Below, piece by piece: positions 39,550-47,838 of a stretch of DNA of 64,000 nt. Position 1 is the first letter of the stretch, and each line of letters opens with the position of its first letter. The notes under the pieces are model-generated. The model worked only from the letters and a program-made list of their open reading frames with translations, did no database searches and was not told where the DNA came from. The DNA is from Serendipita indica DSM 11827 (taxonomy: Eukaryota; Basidiomycota; Agaricomycetes; Sebacinales; Serendipitaceae): the NCBI GenBank assembly GCA_910890315.1, contig CAJVGD010000002.1, positions 1,736,001 to 1,800,000 of the forward strand. The letters run 5' to 3'. Both the position numbers and the translations under genes were made by a program.

Positions 39550-39829
39550 GTCTTTCGTTGTTTGCTCTGACACAAACGGTCCATCAACACTTTACACTAT
39601 CGGTTTCTAAACTTGTCACACTGTGTTCTGGCTCTATCATTCATACCATGTACTCCTACTCTTCCCGCCCCGGCACTCTTCGTTTTCCTCACGCCACGCT
39701 CCAGTGGGTTCTTTATGCTGCATTAAGATAACATACCACTATGTTATTCGCATCACGCGTATTCTATCGCATCCTTACTTGTTGCATTATCACTTAATCC
39801 GGCGTGCGCGCCGTCTGTTCATAGAAACC

Positions 39830-40614
39830 GAAGGGCCCTCTGGGTGGACCCCTGACCTTTATGTCCTTTTGGGCTCGACGATTTATCGCGAAATATACGT
39901 TATACACACAACTCGCGTGGGACCCCTTAGACGCTCGCAATGAACAGGGAGGAGGGGTGTGAACGAAATAGGAGATTTTATCAGAGACCTAAATGGCAAA
40001 CAAAAGCAATCGCGCCGTCTGGATCCAGGAGGAGACAGAGCACGCAGGCGGAGATTGTGAGGGGCACTAAGGCTATGGGCCCGAGCCTTCAGTCCTCTTT
40101 CCCTTGATCTGCTGGAGCTCGCGCTCAGGTGCATAGGAGTAAGCTGTTCGACAAAAGAACGTAAAGTTTCAGCTGGTGATGCACTCACAATACTCAAGGG
40201 AGCAACGTCTCTCCTGGAAACAACAGATGCATGCAAATTCAACGGATAACGAGTGACATAAACGTCTCTGACGGGTGAAACGGACCGCAGAGGTTCGTGT
40301 GAAACGACATTGGAATGCTCGCGTGGTATACAGGCGGCGCCGGCAACACCTAATACAGGCAGTCAGAGTAAGTCCAGGGGTATCAAGAGGTCCGACACAC
40401 TTTGAGGTGGCAAATTAGATAGCTTTACAGGAAAAGGTCAGCGGTGAGTAGACTTCGAAGCCAAATTGAACGTGTTCGAGCGGGAGGGTGTTGTCTTGGG
40501 AGTGTCAGTAAAATCCATAGTGGTAGGGAGAACGTACTGGTTTACGTGCAGACATTTCAATTACTGTGTCTGGGCCTGTAAGACCGTTCCCTCCACTTCG
40601 TTACGGTCAGGGGA
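39830..40614. repeat. Direct repeat copy A, upstream of the NLR gene (785 bp)
   Basis: Matches 46617-47838 in the same orientation, about 94% identical by eye over the first 265 bp, from GAAGGGCCCT to TTACGGTCAGGGGA, and ends abruptly at both sides. It lacks the 433 bp present in copy B (junction at 40544/40545). Near its ends the motif CCCCTGACC occurs in inverted orientation (about 39850 and 40605), a possible vestige of terminal inverted repeats. The minus strand has a 119-codon open frame in both copies that starts at a non-ATG codon and contains splice-like sites, so it may derive from an exon of an unknown gene. No target-site duplication was recognised. Confidence 0.8.
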
Positions 40615-40993
40615 CTCACTGGCTAATTTGGTTCCTCTTCTATCAAACCGTCGCCTTATTCCATGTAAGGCTGCAGAAGAAATAGACGCCTCTTCAGAGG
40701 CCTCGCTATTGAATTTCCATCCGTCTTATAGATACAGCTCCTATGCATATCGAGTTGTGCACTGTCCAGATCCAACGTGTTATAGAACCATAACCCTTAG
40801 CTAGTGGCTCTACAATTTCTTGCGATAACGACCGACGCGGTGCCAAAAAAGATTTGGTGGCTCCTCGGGTACTTTGCCCTCCAATTTGCGGTCCTCCCAT
40901 ATATCCAGCGTATCGATAATATGATGCGTTGGTTTATCTAACCGACAGCCTGGCATTGGCGCTGACCACATCTTGGAGCCCTCCACCTTCACG

Positions 40994-43900
40994 ATGTCGA
41001 CCCAAAAATCAACAAAGCACAAGAAACAACATCTGCCCGTAGATTCATCGGGATCCTCGTCAGCACAGCGCCCAACAGGCAAAAAACGTCAAGTATACGA
41101 CACGCTCAATGTCGGCCTGGATGTAGTGGCCAACATATCCGAGGGATCAGATGTACTCGCTCCTCTCAAGGCAGCTTGTCGAACCACCAAGTCAATTCTC
41201 GAAGTCGTACAGGCAAGTTGGCGAACCTGCCACGACTGCGTCTAACGGATTCAATAGGCAGCAGAGATCAATCAAGAGGAATGGATTGATCTAGCTGGAC
41301 GTTTGAAGGAATACATGTCTGCGCTCGAGAAACAAATCACCCTATTGGAGGCATATCCTGAGGAAGACATGGCCGTTGACGAGGCGTTTAGGCAGCCGCT
41401 AATCCACTATGTCGAGTACGTAGCACTTCAAATTTGCTTCAGTAGGCTGATGATGTAGATTTCTCGAAAATATGCACGATACAATTGTCGACCTGAAGGA
41501 GAAACGCAACCGCAGCAAGCTCAGCATCTTTAAAGCGTTCAGCAAAATGAAAATTGACGCAGAAGAGATTCGCAAACTCAATCGAGACATCGAGGACCGG
41601 CATAGGCAATTCATGGTGCGAGCCTCATCGACCTTGTTCACAGTACTCACTATCGACAAAGGAGGCCTTGAGTCTTTTTACAGCCTTGCGTATTCAAAAT
41701 GTCGAGAGGAATACCAAAGCCACCAAGGCGAACGTGGAGACCATTCTTACAGACAGTAAGCTGAAATTTGGGATGAGACGCTTACTAATCATTCGAAGTC
41801 GACGCCCATGCTATACTACAGCTACCGGTGGTAGCTTTCGTCGCATCCTCAGTCCACAGCCCCTGTCTGAAAGGAACACGCGAGGCTGTTCTTCAGACCA
41901 TCTACCGCTGGGCCGACGATGATACGTCGGACAAGCCGATATTTTGGCTGTGTGATATCGCCGGCTCTGGCAAGTCCACAGTCGCAATGTCTGCAGCAGA
42001 GACTTGGAGGAAGGAAGGAGTGCTAGGAGGCCGGTTCTTCTTCTCCATTGCAAACAGTGAAGGATCTACCACAGACAAGTTCTGCTCTACAATAGCAAGA
42101 GACCTGGTCGACTACATACCCAGGCTTGCGCCGCACGTCGCTGGAGCCGTGAAGCGGCACCCGTCGTTCATGCGAAGCTCTCTAGAAGAACAGTTCCAGA
42201 AGTTCGTCATTGATCCCATCCATCATAGTCAAGAACGTGTCATTCTCGTCATCGACGCTCTTGATGAATGTAAATCTGGATTGCAGCGAAGAGAGCTCGT
42301 CGAAACGCTTTCTACAGCTGTTCAAGGAACAAAAAACCTCAAGATCTTCATGACGAGTCGGCCAGATCCCGTAATCCAAGCCGTCTTGGGGTCACTCTCA
42401 ATCAAATCCAAGTTGGAGGACCGACTGCACGATGTCAAGCATCATGATAACATTGGTGATATCGCAGTGTACATACACAAAGCACTAGACAACGTGCTGC
42501 CGGAGGACAAAAGGCAGAGACTGATCGAAAAGGCCAACGGATTGTTCATCTGGGCGAGCACTGCATGTCGAATGCTCACCAGCCAGACAAGCTTAAGCCC
42601 TCCGGAGATCACGTATGATCACCTCATGTCCATGGACAAGGCTGGGGCCATAGACGATCTATATAACCTCATCTTTATGCGCACGGATCCCGAGTTCCAC
42701 GCGATCATGTACAAGATGCTCGCTGTATTGCTTGCAGCGTTTGAGCCGCTGACTGCGGACGACGTGGACGACATTCTCAAGCATTCCGGGGTATACGGAA
42801 GTGCAAAGGCACTGGTACGGAATCTCGGCAGCGTACTTATTGAGGATGATACCACGAGTCTAATCCAATTTCGGCACCCCACTTTCGTCGAATACCTTCG
42901 GCGTTGCTCTGTTGCCCCACCCATCAATACGCATAACAACGTGTATATCAGGATTCCTGACGCACACAGCCAAGCCGCAGTTTGGTGTCTCAAACATCTC
43001 ACATCGCGAAGAGATGGTCTCAAGTTCAATATATGTCAACTGGAGTCATCTTTCTATCTTAATAGAGAGATTCCAAACCTCGATACGAGAGTATCGAGAT
43101 TCATTTCAAGACGCCTGCGATATGCCAGCTCTCATTGGCTGTTCCATGTGGCCGAAGCTGACGACAGCTGGCGGTCCATCGTCAAGAAGGAAATCCAACA
43201 GATTATTCAAGTTCCATATGTGTTATACTGGATGGAGGTTCTGAGCTTGACCGGAGGAGTGCCACGAGCAATAACCGGTCTTCGAGCTATTAAACGCCAC
43301 GCAGGAGTAAGTTGCTGATCCGAGCCAATTCAACTCTGACGCCACAGATAGCTTGAAACATGGGATGAAGTCAGCACGGACCAAATTCGACGGTTTATAA
43401 TGGTATTTTCAGTACCGATTCAAGAGAGCGCCCCACACATATACATTTCCGCACTCCCATTCACCCCTACAAATTCAATATTGCATATCGAGGGTGCGAA
43501 GATGTATAGTAATACCCTCTGTGTAACCGAAGGCCTCGAGGAAATGTATCCTGGGCTCCCAAATAGGCTTCGAGGTCATGAGGGCGAGGTCAGCGCCGTC
43601 GGATTCTCGCCAGACGGCTCACAGATTGTGTCTGGCTCGTGGGACGACACAATTCGATTGTGGGACGCGGCAACTGGTCAGGCTCTGGGAGAGCCACTCC
43701 GAGGTCATGAAGGCACAGTCAACGCCGTCGGATTCTCGCCAGACGGCTCACAGATTGTGTCTGGCTCGTCCGACAACACAATTCGATTGTGGGACGCGGC
43801 AACTGGTCAGGCTGTGGGAGAGCCACTCCGAGGTCATGAAGGCGGAGTCAACGCCGTCGGATTCTCGCCGGACGGCTCACAGATTGTGTCTGGCTCGTCC

Positions 43901-46609
43901 GACAAGACAATTCGATTGTGGGACGCGGCAACTGGTCAGGCTGTGGGAGAGCCACTCCGAGGTCATGAAGGCAGAGTCAACGCCGTCGGATTCTCGCCAG
44001 ACGGCTCACAGATTGTGTCTGGCTCGTCCGACAACACAATTCGATTGTGGGACGCGGCAACTGGTCAGGCTGTGGGAGAGCCACTCCGAGGTCATGAAGG
44101 CAGAGTCAACGCCGTCGGATTCTCGCCAGACGGCTCACAGATTGTGTCTGGCTCGTGGGACAAGACAATTCGATTGTGGGACGCGGCAACTGGTCAGGCT
44201 GTGGGAGAGCCACTCCGAGGTCATGAATTGGGTCAACGCCGTCGGATTCTCGCCAGACGGCTCACAGATTGTGTCTGGCTCGTTCGACAACACAATTCGA
44301 TTGTGGGACGCGGCAACTGGTCAGGCTGTGGGAGAGCCACTCCGAGGTCATGAAGGCACAGTCAACGCCGTCGGATTCTCGCCAGACGGCTCACAGATTG
44401 TGTCTGGCTCGTGCGACAACACAATTCGATTGTGGGACGCGGCAACTGGTCAGGCTGTGGGAGAGCCACTTCGAGGTCATGAACATTGTGTCTCCGCCGT
44501 CGGATTCTCGCCAGACGGCTCACAGATTGTGTCTGGCTCGTGGGACAACACAATTCGATTGTGGGACGCGGCAACTGGTCAGGCTGTGGGAGAGCCACTT
44601 CGAGGTCATGAAAATGGGGTCAACGCCGTCGGATTCTCGCCAGACGGCTCACAGATTGTGTCTGGCTCGTACGACAACACAATTCGATTGTGGGACGCGG
44701 CAACTGGTCAGGCTGTGGGAGAGCCACTTCGAGGTCATGAACATTGGGTCTCCGCCGTCGGATTCTCGCCAGACGGCTCACAGATTGTGTCTGGCTCGTA
44801 CGACAACACAATTCGATTGTGGGACGCGGCAACTGGTCAGGCTGTGGGAGAGCCACTCCGAGGTCATGAAGGCAGAGTCAACGCCGTCGGATTCTCGCCA
44901 GACGGCTCACAGATTGTGTCTGGCTCGTGGGACAAGACAATTCGATTGTGGGACGCGGCAACTGGTCAGGCTGTGGGAGAGCCACTCCGAGGTCATGAAG
45001 GCAGAGTCAACGCCGTCGGATTCTCGCCAGACGGCTCACAGATTGTGTCTGGCTCGTGGGACAACACAATTCGATTGTGGGACGCGGCAACTGGTCAGGC
45101 TGTGGGAGAGCCACTCCGAGGTCATGAAGGCACAGTCAACGCCGTCGGATTCTCGCCAGACGGCTCACAGATTGTGTCTGGCTCGTCGACAACACAATTC
45201 GATTGTGGGACGCGGCAACTGGTCAGGCTGTGGGAGAGCCACTCCGAGGTCATGAAGGCACAGTCAACGCCGTCGGATTCTCGCCAGACGGCTCACAGAT
45301 TGTGTCTGGCTCGTCCGACAAGACAATTCGATTGTGGGACGCGGCAACTGGTCAGGCTGTGGGAGAGCCACTCCGAGGTCATGACAATTGGGTCAACGCC
45401 GTCGGATTCTCGCCAGACGGCTCACAGATTGTGTCTGGCTCGTGGGACAACACAATTCGATTGTGGGACGCGGCAACTGGTCAGGCTGTGGGAGAGCCAA
45501 TCCGAGGTCATGAATATGGGGTCAACGCCGTCGGATTCTCGCCAGACGGCTCACAGATTGTGTCTGGCTCGTGGGACAAGACAATTCGATTGTGGGACGC
45601 GGCAACTGGTCAGGCTGTGGGAGAGCCACTCCGAGGTCATGAAGGCACAGTCAACGCCGTCGGATTCTCGCCAGACGGCTCACAGATTGTGTCTGGCTCG
45701 TCCGACAACACAATTCGATTGTGGGACGCGGCAACTGGTCAGGCTGTGGGAGAGCCACTCCGAGGTCATGAAGGCAGAGTCAACGCCGTCGGATTCTCGC
45801 CAGACGGCTCACAGATTGTGTCTGGCTCGTGGGACAACACAATTCGATTGTGGGACGCGGCAACTGGTCAGGCTGTGGGAGAGCCACTCCGAGGTCATGA
45901 AGGCAGAGTCAACGCCGTCGGATTCTCGCCAGACGGCTCACAGATTGTGTCTGGCTCGTGGGACAAGACAATTCGATTGTGGGACGCGGCAACTGGTCAG
46001 GCTGTGGGAGAGCCACTCCGAGGTCATGAAGGCACAGTCAACGCCGTCGGATTCTCGCCAGACGGCTCACAGATTGTGTCTGGCTCGGAAGACAACACAA
46101 TTCGATTGTGGGACGCGGCAACTGGTCAGGCTGTGGGAGAGCCAATCCTCGGTCATGAACACACAGTCAGCGCCGTCGGATTCTCGCCAGGCGGATCACA
46201 GATAGTCTCCGGCTCGTGGGACAAGACGATCCGATCATGGGATGCAGAAACAGGTGAGTTCAACTCAGCTCGCCTTCGAGATTGTGATGCGACTCGACAA
46301 ATAGCCTTGAGTGCAAACGCAAATTCTTCTGGTAAAGAGTCTGTATATTCAAGCCTCAGTGAGGATCTACCGGCCACTCCTCTAAGAATCCATGTACCTG
46401 GATTCCAAATTTGCTTACTCTCGCAGGACGGCTGGGTACATTCTTCCGGCAAACGTCTCTTCTGGGTACCACCAGACAATCGACACGGACTAAAATATCC
46501 ATATCTCCTGACAATTCCAAACGAGGCTCCATTCCGCAAGACCAAGTTTGATTTCACCAATTTTCAATGTGGTCTCTCTTGGACAAATGTTCGAACAAAT
46601 GTCCCATAA
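40994..46609 (+). CDS. NACHT-WD40 NLR (STAND) protein, HET-E/NWD2-like
   Basis: Large intracellular receptor-type NTPase of about 1,790 residues. Start [12 protein letters not shown] at 40994. The N-terminal ~200 residues, over four small exons, are helical ([50 protein letters not shown]) and resemble the MLKL/HeLo-type domain common in basidiomycete NLRs. The NACHT domain has P-loop [21 protein letters not shown] (Walker B) and [10 protein letters not shown] helical region follows ([28 protein letters not shown]). 21 WD40 units then fill 43571-46276, and a conserved tail ([31 protein letters not shown]) ends at TAA 46607-46609. Intron 1 (41213-41257) uses a GC donor; intron 5 uses the acceptor ATAG before CTTGAAACATGG. 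Two WD units are 2 and 1 nt short (see findings). The probable role is non-self recognition or incompatibility. Confidence 0.85.
43571..46276 (+). repeat. Array of 21 near-identical 129-bp WD40-coding units
   Basis: Each unit codes about 43 residues around GHE[38 protein letters not shown]. Units begin about every 129 bp from 43571. Unit 6 (from about 44219) is 127 bp and unit 13 (from about 45120) is 128 bp. The first and last units are the most diverged. Between units, changes concentrate in the two residues after GHE (GE, GT, GG, GR, HC, NG, HW, NW, YG, HT), N/S before AV, the residue after VSGS (W, S, F, C, Y, E) and N/K/D before TIR. This fits seven-bladed propellers with selected surface positions. 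Confidence 0.93.
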
Positions 46610-46616
46610 TGACACT

Positions 46617-47838
46617 GAAGGGCCCTCCGGGCGGACCCCTGACCTTTATCTCCTTTTGGGCTCGATGATTTATTGCGAAATATATATTATACACACAACT
46701 CGCGTGGGACCCCTTAGACGCTCGCAATGAACAGGGAGAAGGGGTGTGAACGAAATAGGAGATTTCATCAGAGACCTAAATGATAAACAAAAGCAATCGT
46801 GCCATCTGGATCCAGGAGGAGACAGAGCACGCAGGCGGAGATTGTGAGGGGCACTAAGACTATGGGTCCGAGCCTTCAGTCCTCTTTCCTTTGATCTGCT
46901 GGAGCTCGCGCTCAGGTGCATAGGAGTAAGCTGTTCGACAAAAGAACGTAAAGTTTCAGCTGATGATGCACTCACAATACTCAAGGGAGCAACGTCTCTC
47001 CTGGGAACAACAGATGCGTGCAGATTCAACGGATAACAAGTGACATCAACGTCTCTGACGGGTGAAACGGAGTGCAGAGGCTCGTGTGAAACGACATTGG
47101 AATCCTCGCGTGGTATACAGGCAGCGCTGGCAACACCTACAGGCAGTCAGAGTAAGTCCAGGGGTATCAAGAGGTCCGACGCACCTTGAGGTGGCAAATT
47201 AGATAGCGTTACGGGAAGAAGGGTCAGCGGTGAGTAGACTTCGAAGCCAAATTGAACGTGTTCGAGCGGGAGGGTGTTGTCTGGGGAGTGTCAGTACAAT
47301 CCATAGTGATAGGGAGAACGTACTGGTTTATGTCTGTCGCGTGTAACAAAACTCAATGAATTGGGTGAGGTGGCCCAGACGTTCGTCGATATTTCCAATC
47401 AGATGAATGTGGAGAGCCAGAGTGTCGGGTGCCAGGGAAGTTAATGGCAGCATTGCTGCTTCCTTAGTATGTAGAAGCGTTGAAAGATACTGATAGAACC
47501 CGAATTGTTGAGCGAAGGTGGGCAAGCTTGACTCGCCTTTCGGCATCGGTGCTGAAGTCAAGAAACCGGGGAGGATAGACCAATAAGCTGCGGTCAGCCT
47601 GTACAATAAGCTGACAAAGTTCACTGATACGCATTGGGAGCGCAAGGTCCGAGGGGAGGCCAGTGAGCTCGAGCCAGGAGAACAATGTCTTAGGACAAAG
47701 GCTCGAGCGGGCTTTTCAAGTGGCCGCCGCAGTCTGACAAGGAGCCAAATATTAGTTGAAAATCGTGCAGACATTTCAATTACTGTGCCTGGTAAAGGCT
47801 TGTAAGACCCTTCCCTCCACTTCGTTACGGTCAGGGGA
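46617..47838. repeat. Direct repeat copy B, downstream of the NLR gene (1,222 bp)
   Basis: Starts 8 bp after the NLR stop codon. Same sequence and orientation as copy A but with 433 additional bases (47331-47763), which contain most of a 148-codon minus-strand frame starting with a true ATG at 47774 (MSARFSTNIWLLVRL). In copy A that ATG and the first codons remain (40546-40555) but lead directly into the shared sequence. Either copy A lost the segment or copy B gained it; the junction does not look like a GT-AG intron. I recognise no protein family in the frame. Confidence 0.8.

Follow-up and report, generated by a model that had tools for sequence, protein, structure and literature searches.

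An NLR gene bracketed by two direct repeats

We analysed a 64,000-nt stretch of the Serendipita indica DSM 11827 genome (assembly GCA_910890315.1, contig CAJVGD010000002.1, C2:1736001-1800000; hereafter the window), which carries a NOD-like receptor (NLR) gene with two copies of one repeat, A and B, on either side of it. C-numbers denote contigs of the same assembly (24.7 Mb, 55 contigs; C2 carries the window), and all comparisons were made within this single genome. As shown in Table 1, the gene combines a NACHT region with an array of near-identical WD40 repeats, which is the make-up of fungal NACHT-WD40 NLRs; its product may have a role in incompatibility. The pattern found around this gene and its relatives suggests that repeats and transposons move NLR receptors around the genome.

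The sequences of A and B are approximately 94% identical. Ungapped blocks gave 94% for 39824-40123 vs. 46611-46910, 95% for 40354-40433 vs. 47138-47217, 96% for 40433-40547 vs. 47219-47333 and 95% for 40573-40614 vs. 47797-47838. This confirmed what a sequence-only reading of the window had claimed, namely that two direct repeats in the same orientation bracket one NLR. Within the bounds used in that reading B is 1222 bp long, and A is a 785-bp form without B positions 718-1147; a flanking CT common to all intact copies (CC in A) extends both repeats to the bounds given in Table 1. B, which had been placed 8 bp after the stop codon (from 46617), does follow the stop directly, but at a distance of 5 bp. 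No target duplication was seen at A or B, as had also been stated. The A-B unit as a whole is flanked by A on the left and T on the right without duplication, and a composite transposon with an outer target duplication was rejected, as none is present at 39827/47839.

An assembly duplication of A/B is unlikely because the two copies differ by approximately 6%, in length and in their flanks. Misassembly of one copy, or of the whole unit, would be helped by the highly repetitive WD array, in which one spacing of 127 bp and one of 128 bp occur instead of 129 bp. Yet, besides the differences between A and B, a related locus on another contig (C13) shows the same arrangement, with a remnant repeat followed by the NLR and a further repeat, and related loci lying in a transposon with terminal inverted repeats (TIRs) have matching target duplications. 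We regard such an artefact as highly improbable.

Table 1. Features of the bracketed locus in the window and positions of the relatives of its NLR gene
Feature	Position	Strand	Remarks
Host A preceding copy A	39827		Left side of the A/T target (slash, insertion point)
Copy A	39828..40614	-	Short (s) form; TC end at 40614, other end at 39828; Helitron-like polarity
NLR upstream segment	40616..40959	+	Common to C13, C6 and C19 (in C19 from 40673); in C6 it starts at the A junction, without repeat
TGGCATTGG	40951..40959	+	Point where C13, C6 and C19 hold about 900 bp extra, absent in the window
NACHT-WD40 (NLR) gene with introns	40994..46609	+	Stop TAA 46607-46609; start codon placed by eye
NACHT exon (NPHP3_N/NACHT)	41789..43318	+	PF24883 E 3.5e-26, PF05729 E 4.9e-11
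WD40 array	43589..46260	+	About 20 near-identical 129-bp repeats; sequence and WD40 profile match
Copy B	46615..47838	-	Long (l) form; 5 bp past the NLR stop; repeat at the same position behind 5 relatives
Host T following copy B	47839		Right side of the A/T target
NLR relatives	C6:1410081; C13:1108450; C40:1681501 (C40a); C40:889730 (C40b); C19:294052; C1:1959681

A and B belong to a dispersed repeat family with Helitron2-like ends

Searches of the genome returned at least 41 matching pieces for A and at least 37 for B, and the number obtained with A alone places the A/B repeat far beyond chance. The pieces were merged by hand into 27 places, which were grouped by common flanks into 17 insertion groups. 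The family is dispersed and non-autonomous, and its ends are Helitron2-like. Host A precedes the element in all 17 copies with an intact left end (9 groups), and host T follows in 19 of the 21 copies with an intact right end; window copy A and C40a have C instead. By eye, no target duplication was seen at these insertions between A and T in the flanks of intact copies. Read on the minus strand, the repeat starts with TCCCCTGACC and ends with TTCAG. The inverse of the start, GGTCAGGGG, sits 21 bp inside the other end and forms a 9-10 bp inverted repeat, so that asymmetric terminal inverted repeats are present, as judged by eye on short sequences and without a chance control. The end motif gave 15 matches genome-wide at up to 3 mismatches, the reversed control none. 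A long terminal repeat (LTR) or solo LTR was rejected, as the repeat has neither TG...CA ends nor a 4-6 bp target duplication.

The repeat resembles a Helitron in the way it inserts; membership in the Helitrons is not established because neither a Rep/helicase partner nor a stable hairpin was found and the end is not CTRR. Instead of the canonical CTRR end with a hairpin 10-12 bases inside, the end is TTCAG, and DNA folding was no more stable than that of shuffled sequences (z +0.65 for the B end, +0.88 for the A end). A PF14214 profile search of the genome gave no matches, but control genomes gave none either, and PF05970 gave 4 matches at 2 loci, whose surroundings were left unread. Neither these profile searches nor searches of the genome with the repeat and its end motif yielded a Rep/helicase partner or an autonomous relative.

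FoHeli elements (Helitron2-type), Helentrons and DINEs are among the closest known systems, sharing the lack of target duplication, TC at one end and an asymmetric inverted repeat, the last of which is described for FoHeli in the excerpted text of PMC5148889. The end TTCAG differs from the ATTTT or CTCCTGT of FoHeli elements, and according to the same paper the insertion site of FoHeli1 and 2 lies between TNAT and T, whereas the target here is A/T. The repeat also departs from Helitron2-type systems in that no Rep/helicase partner was found and its hairpin is no better than shuffles. HELPO1 and HELPO2 of Pleurotus ostreatus are likewise fungal, have AT insertion specificity and can contain genes, but they possess RepHel and CTRR/CTTG ends, and the NLR here does not lie within a single repeat copy; in the excerpts of PMC4289320 the Pleurotus Helitrons are said to carry genes of unknown origin and not to be prone to host-gene capture.

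Two diverged partial copies, C7:63998-64714 and C38:20757-21137, have their downstream flank in common; one ORF (open reading frame) adjoining the C7 copy was tested and had no Pfam match. At C12:1191187-1196774 the repeat stands between two same-strand ORFs of approximately 600 aa with similar starts and no Pfam match.

Six relatives of the NLR are dispersed, and five have the repeat at the position of B

Six relatives of the window NLR, 94-99% identical to it, are dispersed in the genome. Multiplication by unequal exchange, which the sequence-only reading had envisaged, was not observed as tandem copies of the window NLR. The repeat lies right behind the NLR stop, at the exact position of B, in 6 of the 7 clade members (C2, C19, C13, C40a, C40b and C1). 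The C6 locus is without either repeat: homology between it and the window runs from 40616 to 46614, from the inner end of A to that of B, and across the two sites the locus reads GTATA directly followed by TTCACTGG and AACA directly followed by TATTATAAC. Judged from these junctions, C6 shows both sites in the empty state. At C13 a 185-bp remnant of the repeat occupies the A position, with an inner junction identical to that of A.

A two-sided bracket was found at two further places, at C13 around the same NLR and at C6:250952 around another one, in both cases with one side incomplete: the upstream copy at C13 is the 185-bp remnant, and at C6:250952 a full copy lies approximately 330 bp upstream and a 35-bp end approximately 40 bp behind the NLR 3′-end match, in the same orientation.

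The outer surroundings of the loci are unrelated. We compared 16 outer flanks (0.25-2.6 kb each) from the clade loci and an NLR-less element described below, and none of the 120 pairs were similar; in most loci the homology within the clade ends at repeat ends or TIR ends. These results bear on an ordinary segmental duplication of the NLR locus, to which repeats and transposons would have been added independently and after which gene conversion among the repeats would have followed; the bracket would then have no causal part. Segmental duplications do occur at repeat-bearing receptor-like genes, as C6:247500-255030 and C15:17376-24900 match over at least 7.5 kb, to the edges of the compared sequence, and a pair on C10 is a 7.2-kb tandem duplication reaching past the repeat. 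In the clade, however, the dissimilar flanks, the end of homology at repeat or TIR ends (except at the left border of C19) and three NLR-bearing loci with TIRs and 6/6 or 5/6 target duplications speak against such an origin, which we consider quite unlikely.

Four relatives lie in a transposon that also occurs without the NLR

The C13, C40a, C40b and C1 loci are bounded by a 24-bp TIR that begins with TATGAGCGGCCACGGTGGACAAAA, one C40a end having 2 mismatches. Genome-wide, the 24-mer gave 12 matches at up to 3 mismatches and its reversed control none. Target duplications of 6 bp agree at 6/6 bases in C40b, C1 and an element on C19 (C19:18977-20998, hereafter C19s) and at 5/6 in C13, so that, C40a excepted, these elements have both the terminal inverted repeats and the target duplication of fixed length of a TIR transposon. 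C19s has both TIRs TATGAGCGGCCACGGTGGACAAAA and a single short-form repeat, and no NLR. A partial copy at C20:100482, with one TIR end only, carries the repeat at the corresponding site, and the part of it that was read contains no NLR.

Comparison of the arms of C13 and C19s indicates that the site held by the solo repeat in one copy of the TIR transposon is the one held by the NLR unit in another. The left arm of C13 matches C19s up to 19733 and is followed by the remnant repeat, the NLR unit, the short-form repeat and the right arm. The sequence-only reading had looked to strains with one repeat and no NLR for support; within this one genome C19s shows such a state, at a TIR site where C13, C40a, C40b and C1 carry repeat and NLR. 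Whether the NLR was gained or lost there, either direction would need pairing of repeats. An internal junction, C13:1112743 joined to 1111452, is common to C40a, C40b and C1, which lie at three genomic places, and supports mobility of the element that bears the NLR. C40a itself looks like a recombinant, because it has no target duplication, its left arm is nearest to C1 (1.6%) and its NLR is nearest to the window copy (1.0%). Divergence across loci is 1.6-9.6% in the element arms and, among the six repeat-bearing loci, 0.6-2.8% in the final 355 bp of the NLR; coding constraint may explain part of this contrast. A lone TIR with 2 mismatches is present at C12:404777-404800; as an autonomous copy it was rejected, since no second TIR and no ORF above 225 aa were found in the 6.7 kb read.

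The repeats behind the NLR have mixed halves

All six repeats at the B position carry T at positions 58 and 69, which is absent from 10 comparison copies, C19s and C20. These shared bases suggest that the six repeats descend from a single insertion behind the NLR. Their distal halves are of two kinds, with the long form in C2 and C19 and the short form in the four TIR loci, and the short-form deletion is found also in A, in the C13 remnant and in C19s, i.e., in the copy resident in the transposon. Divergence among five B-position copies was 3.4, 1.4, 4.5, 7.9 and 7.2% in positions 1-125, 126-250, 251-375, 376-500 and 501-717, vs. 7.7, 6.8, 6.6, 6.2 and 6.4% among 10 other copies, some of which are mutual duplicates; C40b, with unusually divergent first 250 bp, was left out. 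The near ends thus follow the NLR and the middle of the repeat is at background, as would be expected had recombination taken place between repeats of different loci. The swap of forms and the swap of flanks weigh more here than the divergence gradient. In the first 250 bp of the C40b repeat (C40:894496-894745) there are 17 differences from C13, and only 4 in positions 251-717; this divergence reflects either a burst of change confined to that part or errors in the sequence.

We lean towards recombination between dispersed repeats, together with carriage by the TIR transposon, as the best explanation for the spread of the NLR. In an ancestor, one repeat would have inserted upstream of the NLR and another just behind its stop, C6 keeping both sites empty. 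Homologous recombination between repeat copies, by crossing-over rather than repeated gene conversion, would then, perhaps via a circle, have linked the NLR, together with the near portion of its repeat, to a different locus that already contained a repeat. One receiving locus, at whatever point in the order of exchanges, would have been the TIR transposon with its resident short-form repeat, and the NLR inside it would have become cargo that the element, presumably through the action of a transposase, took to further sites, with 6-bp target duplications arising there. The earlier idea of a cassette is in part supported by these signs of repeat recombination and NLR mobility; as regards the repeat itself, it is a general dispersed element.

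Several results weigh against this explanation. Statistical support for the gradient is modest (Fisher p 0.066, 0.013, 0.032 and 0.014 for B vs. C19, C40a, C1 and C13, the pairs not being independent), and C40b, with 20 differences from B in the first 250 bp, was excluded from it. Past position 717, copies at the B position are again somewhat less divergent than background (6.1, 8.2 and 5.4% vs. 8.9, 12.4 and 8.2%), B and C19 agree at 75/75 bases of the far end, and the distal divergence of B vs. C1 (32/537) is not above the NLR synonymous divergence (26.5/357). Gene conversion and ordinary duplication could give part of the pattern. The left border of C19 (window 40673) is not at a repeat end, and no locus has the original outer flank with the repeat in place, so that the first step is unseen. 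The target duplication is lacking in C40a (1/6). No transposase was found for the TIR element, for which no transposase profile was run, and the PF14214 and PF05970 searches gave no Rep/helicase for the repeat.

The main rival is rolling-circle end-bypass. Replication would start from the TC end of B (47838), miss the B terminator and run through the NLR to the terminator of A (39828), and the whole A-NLR-B unit would be inserted at A/T, perhaps via a circle. The polarity fits, with the NLR beyond the terminal end of B and before the start of A; the unit is flanked by A on the left and T on the right without duplication; and the right borders in C2, C19 and the TIR loci lie at the TC end of the repeat, as predicted. 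End-bypass and circular intermediates are described for Helitrons in the excerpts of PMC5148889. However, the distal halves at the B position are not common to all loci (long vs. short form; 7-8% divergence at positions 376-717), and the solo repeat of C19s and C20 at the site of the NLR unit would require two insertions at one A/T, or loss of the NLR by recombination. Moreover, no Rep/helicase partner was found, either with PF05970 or with PF14214, the latter search having no positive control. We therefore hold end-bypass to be unlikely and retain recombination between repeats with transposon carriage as the preferred explanation.

The repeat favours NLR neighbourhoods

We measured distances from the 17 insertion groups to the centre of the nearest NACHT match, trying 2, 4 and 5 kb. 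Six of the 17 lie within 4 kb, vs. 2.9% of the genome that the 4-kb zones around the matches make up (p 5.3e-6), in line with the expectation of the sequence-only reading that the repeat recurs beside other NLRs. As the NACHT set comprises 91 matches scored out of 218 candidates, the density of the background is a minimum estimate and the true enrichment could be smaller. When groups at the same gene were merged, 4 of 15 were within 4 kb (p 7.2e-4); the other distances gave 6/17 at 5 kb (p 1.7e-5) and 2/17 at 2 kb (p 0.025).

Surroundings were read for 13 groups (all but C41, C40:2396435, C27 and C22). Six of them adjoin a NACHT gene, one at 2.4 kb, and five are not beside a recognised NLR. 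The sequence-only reading would have given up the cassette had the repeat turned up at random sites without a link to NLRs; these five groups do lie away from NLRs, yet proximity to NLRs is enriched. Because of them, we regard the repeat as a general dispersed element that favours NLR neighbourhoods and is not confined to them. The link could stem from a preference that the repeat and NLR genes share for certain genome compartments.

The groups on C10 and C50 lie 243 and 91 bp, respectively, from genes with tetratricopeptide repeat (TPR) arrays. These genes look like STAND receptors, their nucleotide-binding part being judged by eye; as NLRs they held only partly, with DUF7779 found only in C10, below the cut-off, and both absent from the 18 NB-ARC matches. 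At C10:322059-335329 the TPR-array gene forms a 7.2-kb tandem duplication with the repeat 243 bp behind the gene. A repeat-driven origin of this duplication was ruled out, as the duplicated block reaches past the repeat.

Mobile elements and the NLR set of S. indica

For Piriformospora (Serendipita) indica, the available excerpts of PMC3192844 give a 25-Mb genome with 99 NACHT-WD ORFs, which compares with 24.7 Mb and at least 91 NACHT matches here. Most expanded families are ascribed there to local duplication by unequal recombination, whereas the close NLR relatives described here are scattered, and mobile elements bound most of them. Carriage of fungal NLRs by transposons has already been stated in print, in passages of PMC9815663 and PMC12134995. 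The latter mentions one putative NLR in a Gaeumannomyces Starship, and the elements described here resemble such Starships as fungal mobile elements carrying a NACHT-WD NLR; they differ in having TIRs, 6-bp target duplications and one NLR, and with 6.3-8.0 kb between TIRs they do not reach the giant size of Starships. In the open-licence PubMed Central papers searched we found no report of a fungal NLR on a short TIR transposon.

The results bear on the question of how large NLR repertoires are acquired and lost in fungi. One genome holds the NLR without repeats, with one or two of them, and inside a TIR transposon, as well as the transposon with the repeat and without the NLR, so that the question can be tested by comparison of strains. 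As a tentative possibility, traffic of this kind would have two layers: dispersed repeats of rolling-circle type might serve as docking sites where NLR cassettes are gained or lost by recombination, with one such site inside a TIR transposon that takes the receptor to other parts of the genome, and mobile elements rather than local duplication would set the copy number and the presence or absence of NLRs.

Features of the window NLR copy and its upstream segment

The window copy of the NLR looks broken, or mis-sequenced, to judge from its WD array: the reading frame of the first WD repeats hits a stop at 44353, in addition to the two odd spacings. The number of WD repeats varies, with 21 anchor matches in the window vs. 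13-15 in the relatives. Among the five relatives other than C6, C13 and C40b have an open NACHT exon, and C40a, C19 and C1 have frame changes in it; the WD spacing of C13 is regular. In the NACHT exon the ratio of nonsynonymous to synonymous differences per site (pN/pS) was 0.22-0.61 in 15 pairs, counted in the frame of the window copy.

An origin of the window upstream segment from an older lineage was considered and dropped, as C2 and C13 differ by 4.9%, the least of 6 pairs. The approximately 900 bp upstream of the NLR at C13:1111060-1111970, C6:1409172-1410081 and C19:293145-294052 are flanked by near-duplicates of TGGCATTGG; this block holds an opposite-strand ORF that looks methyltransferase-like by eye and is cleanly missing in the window.

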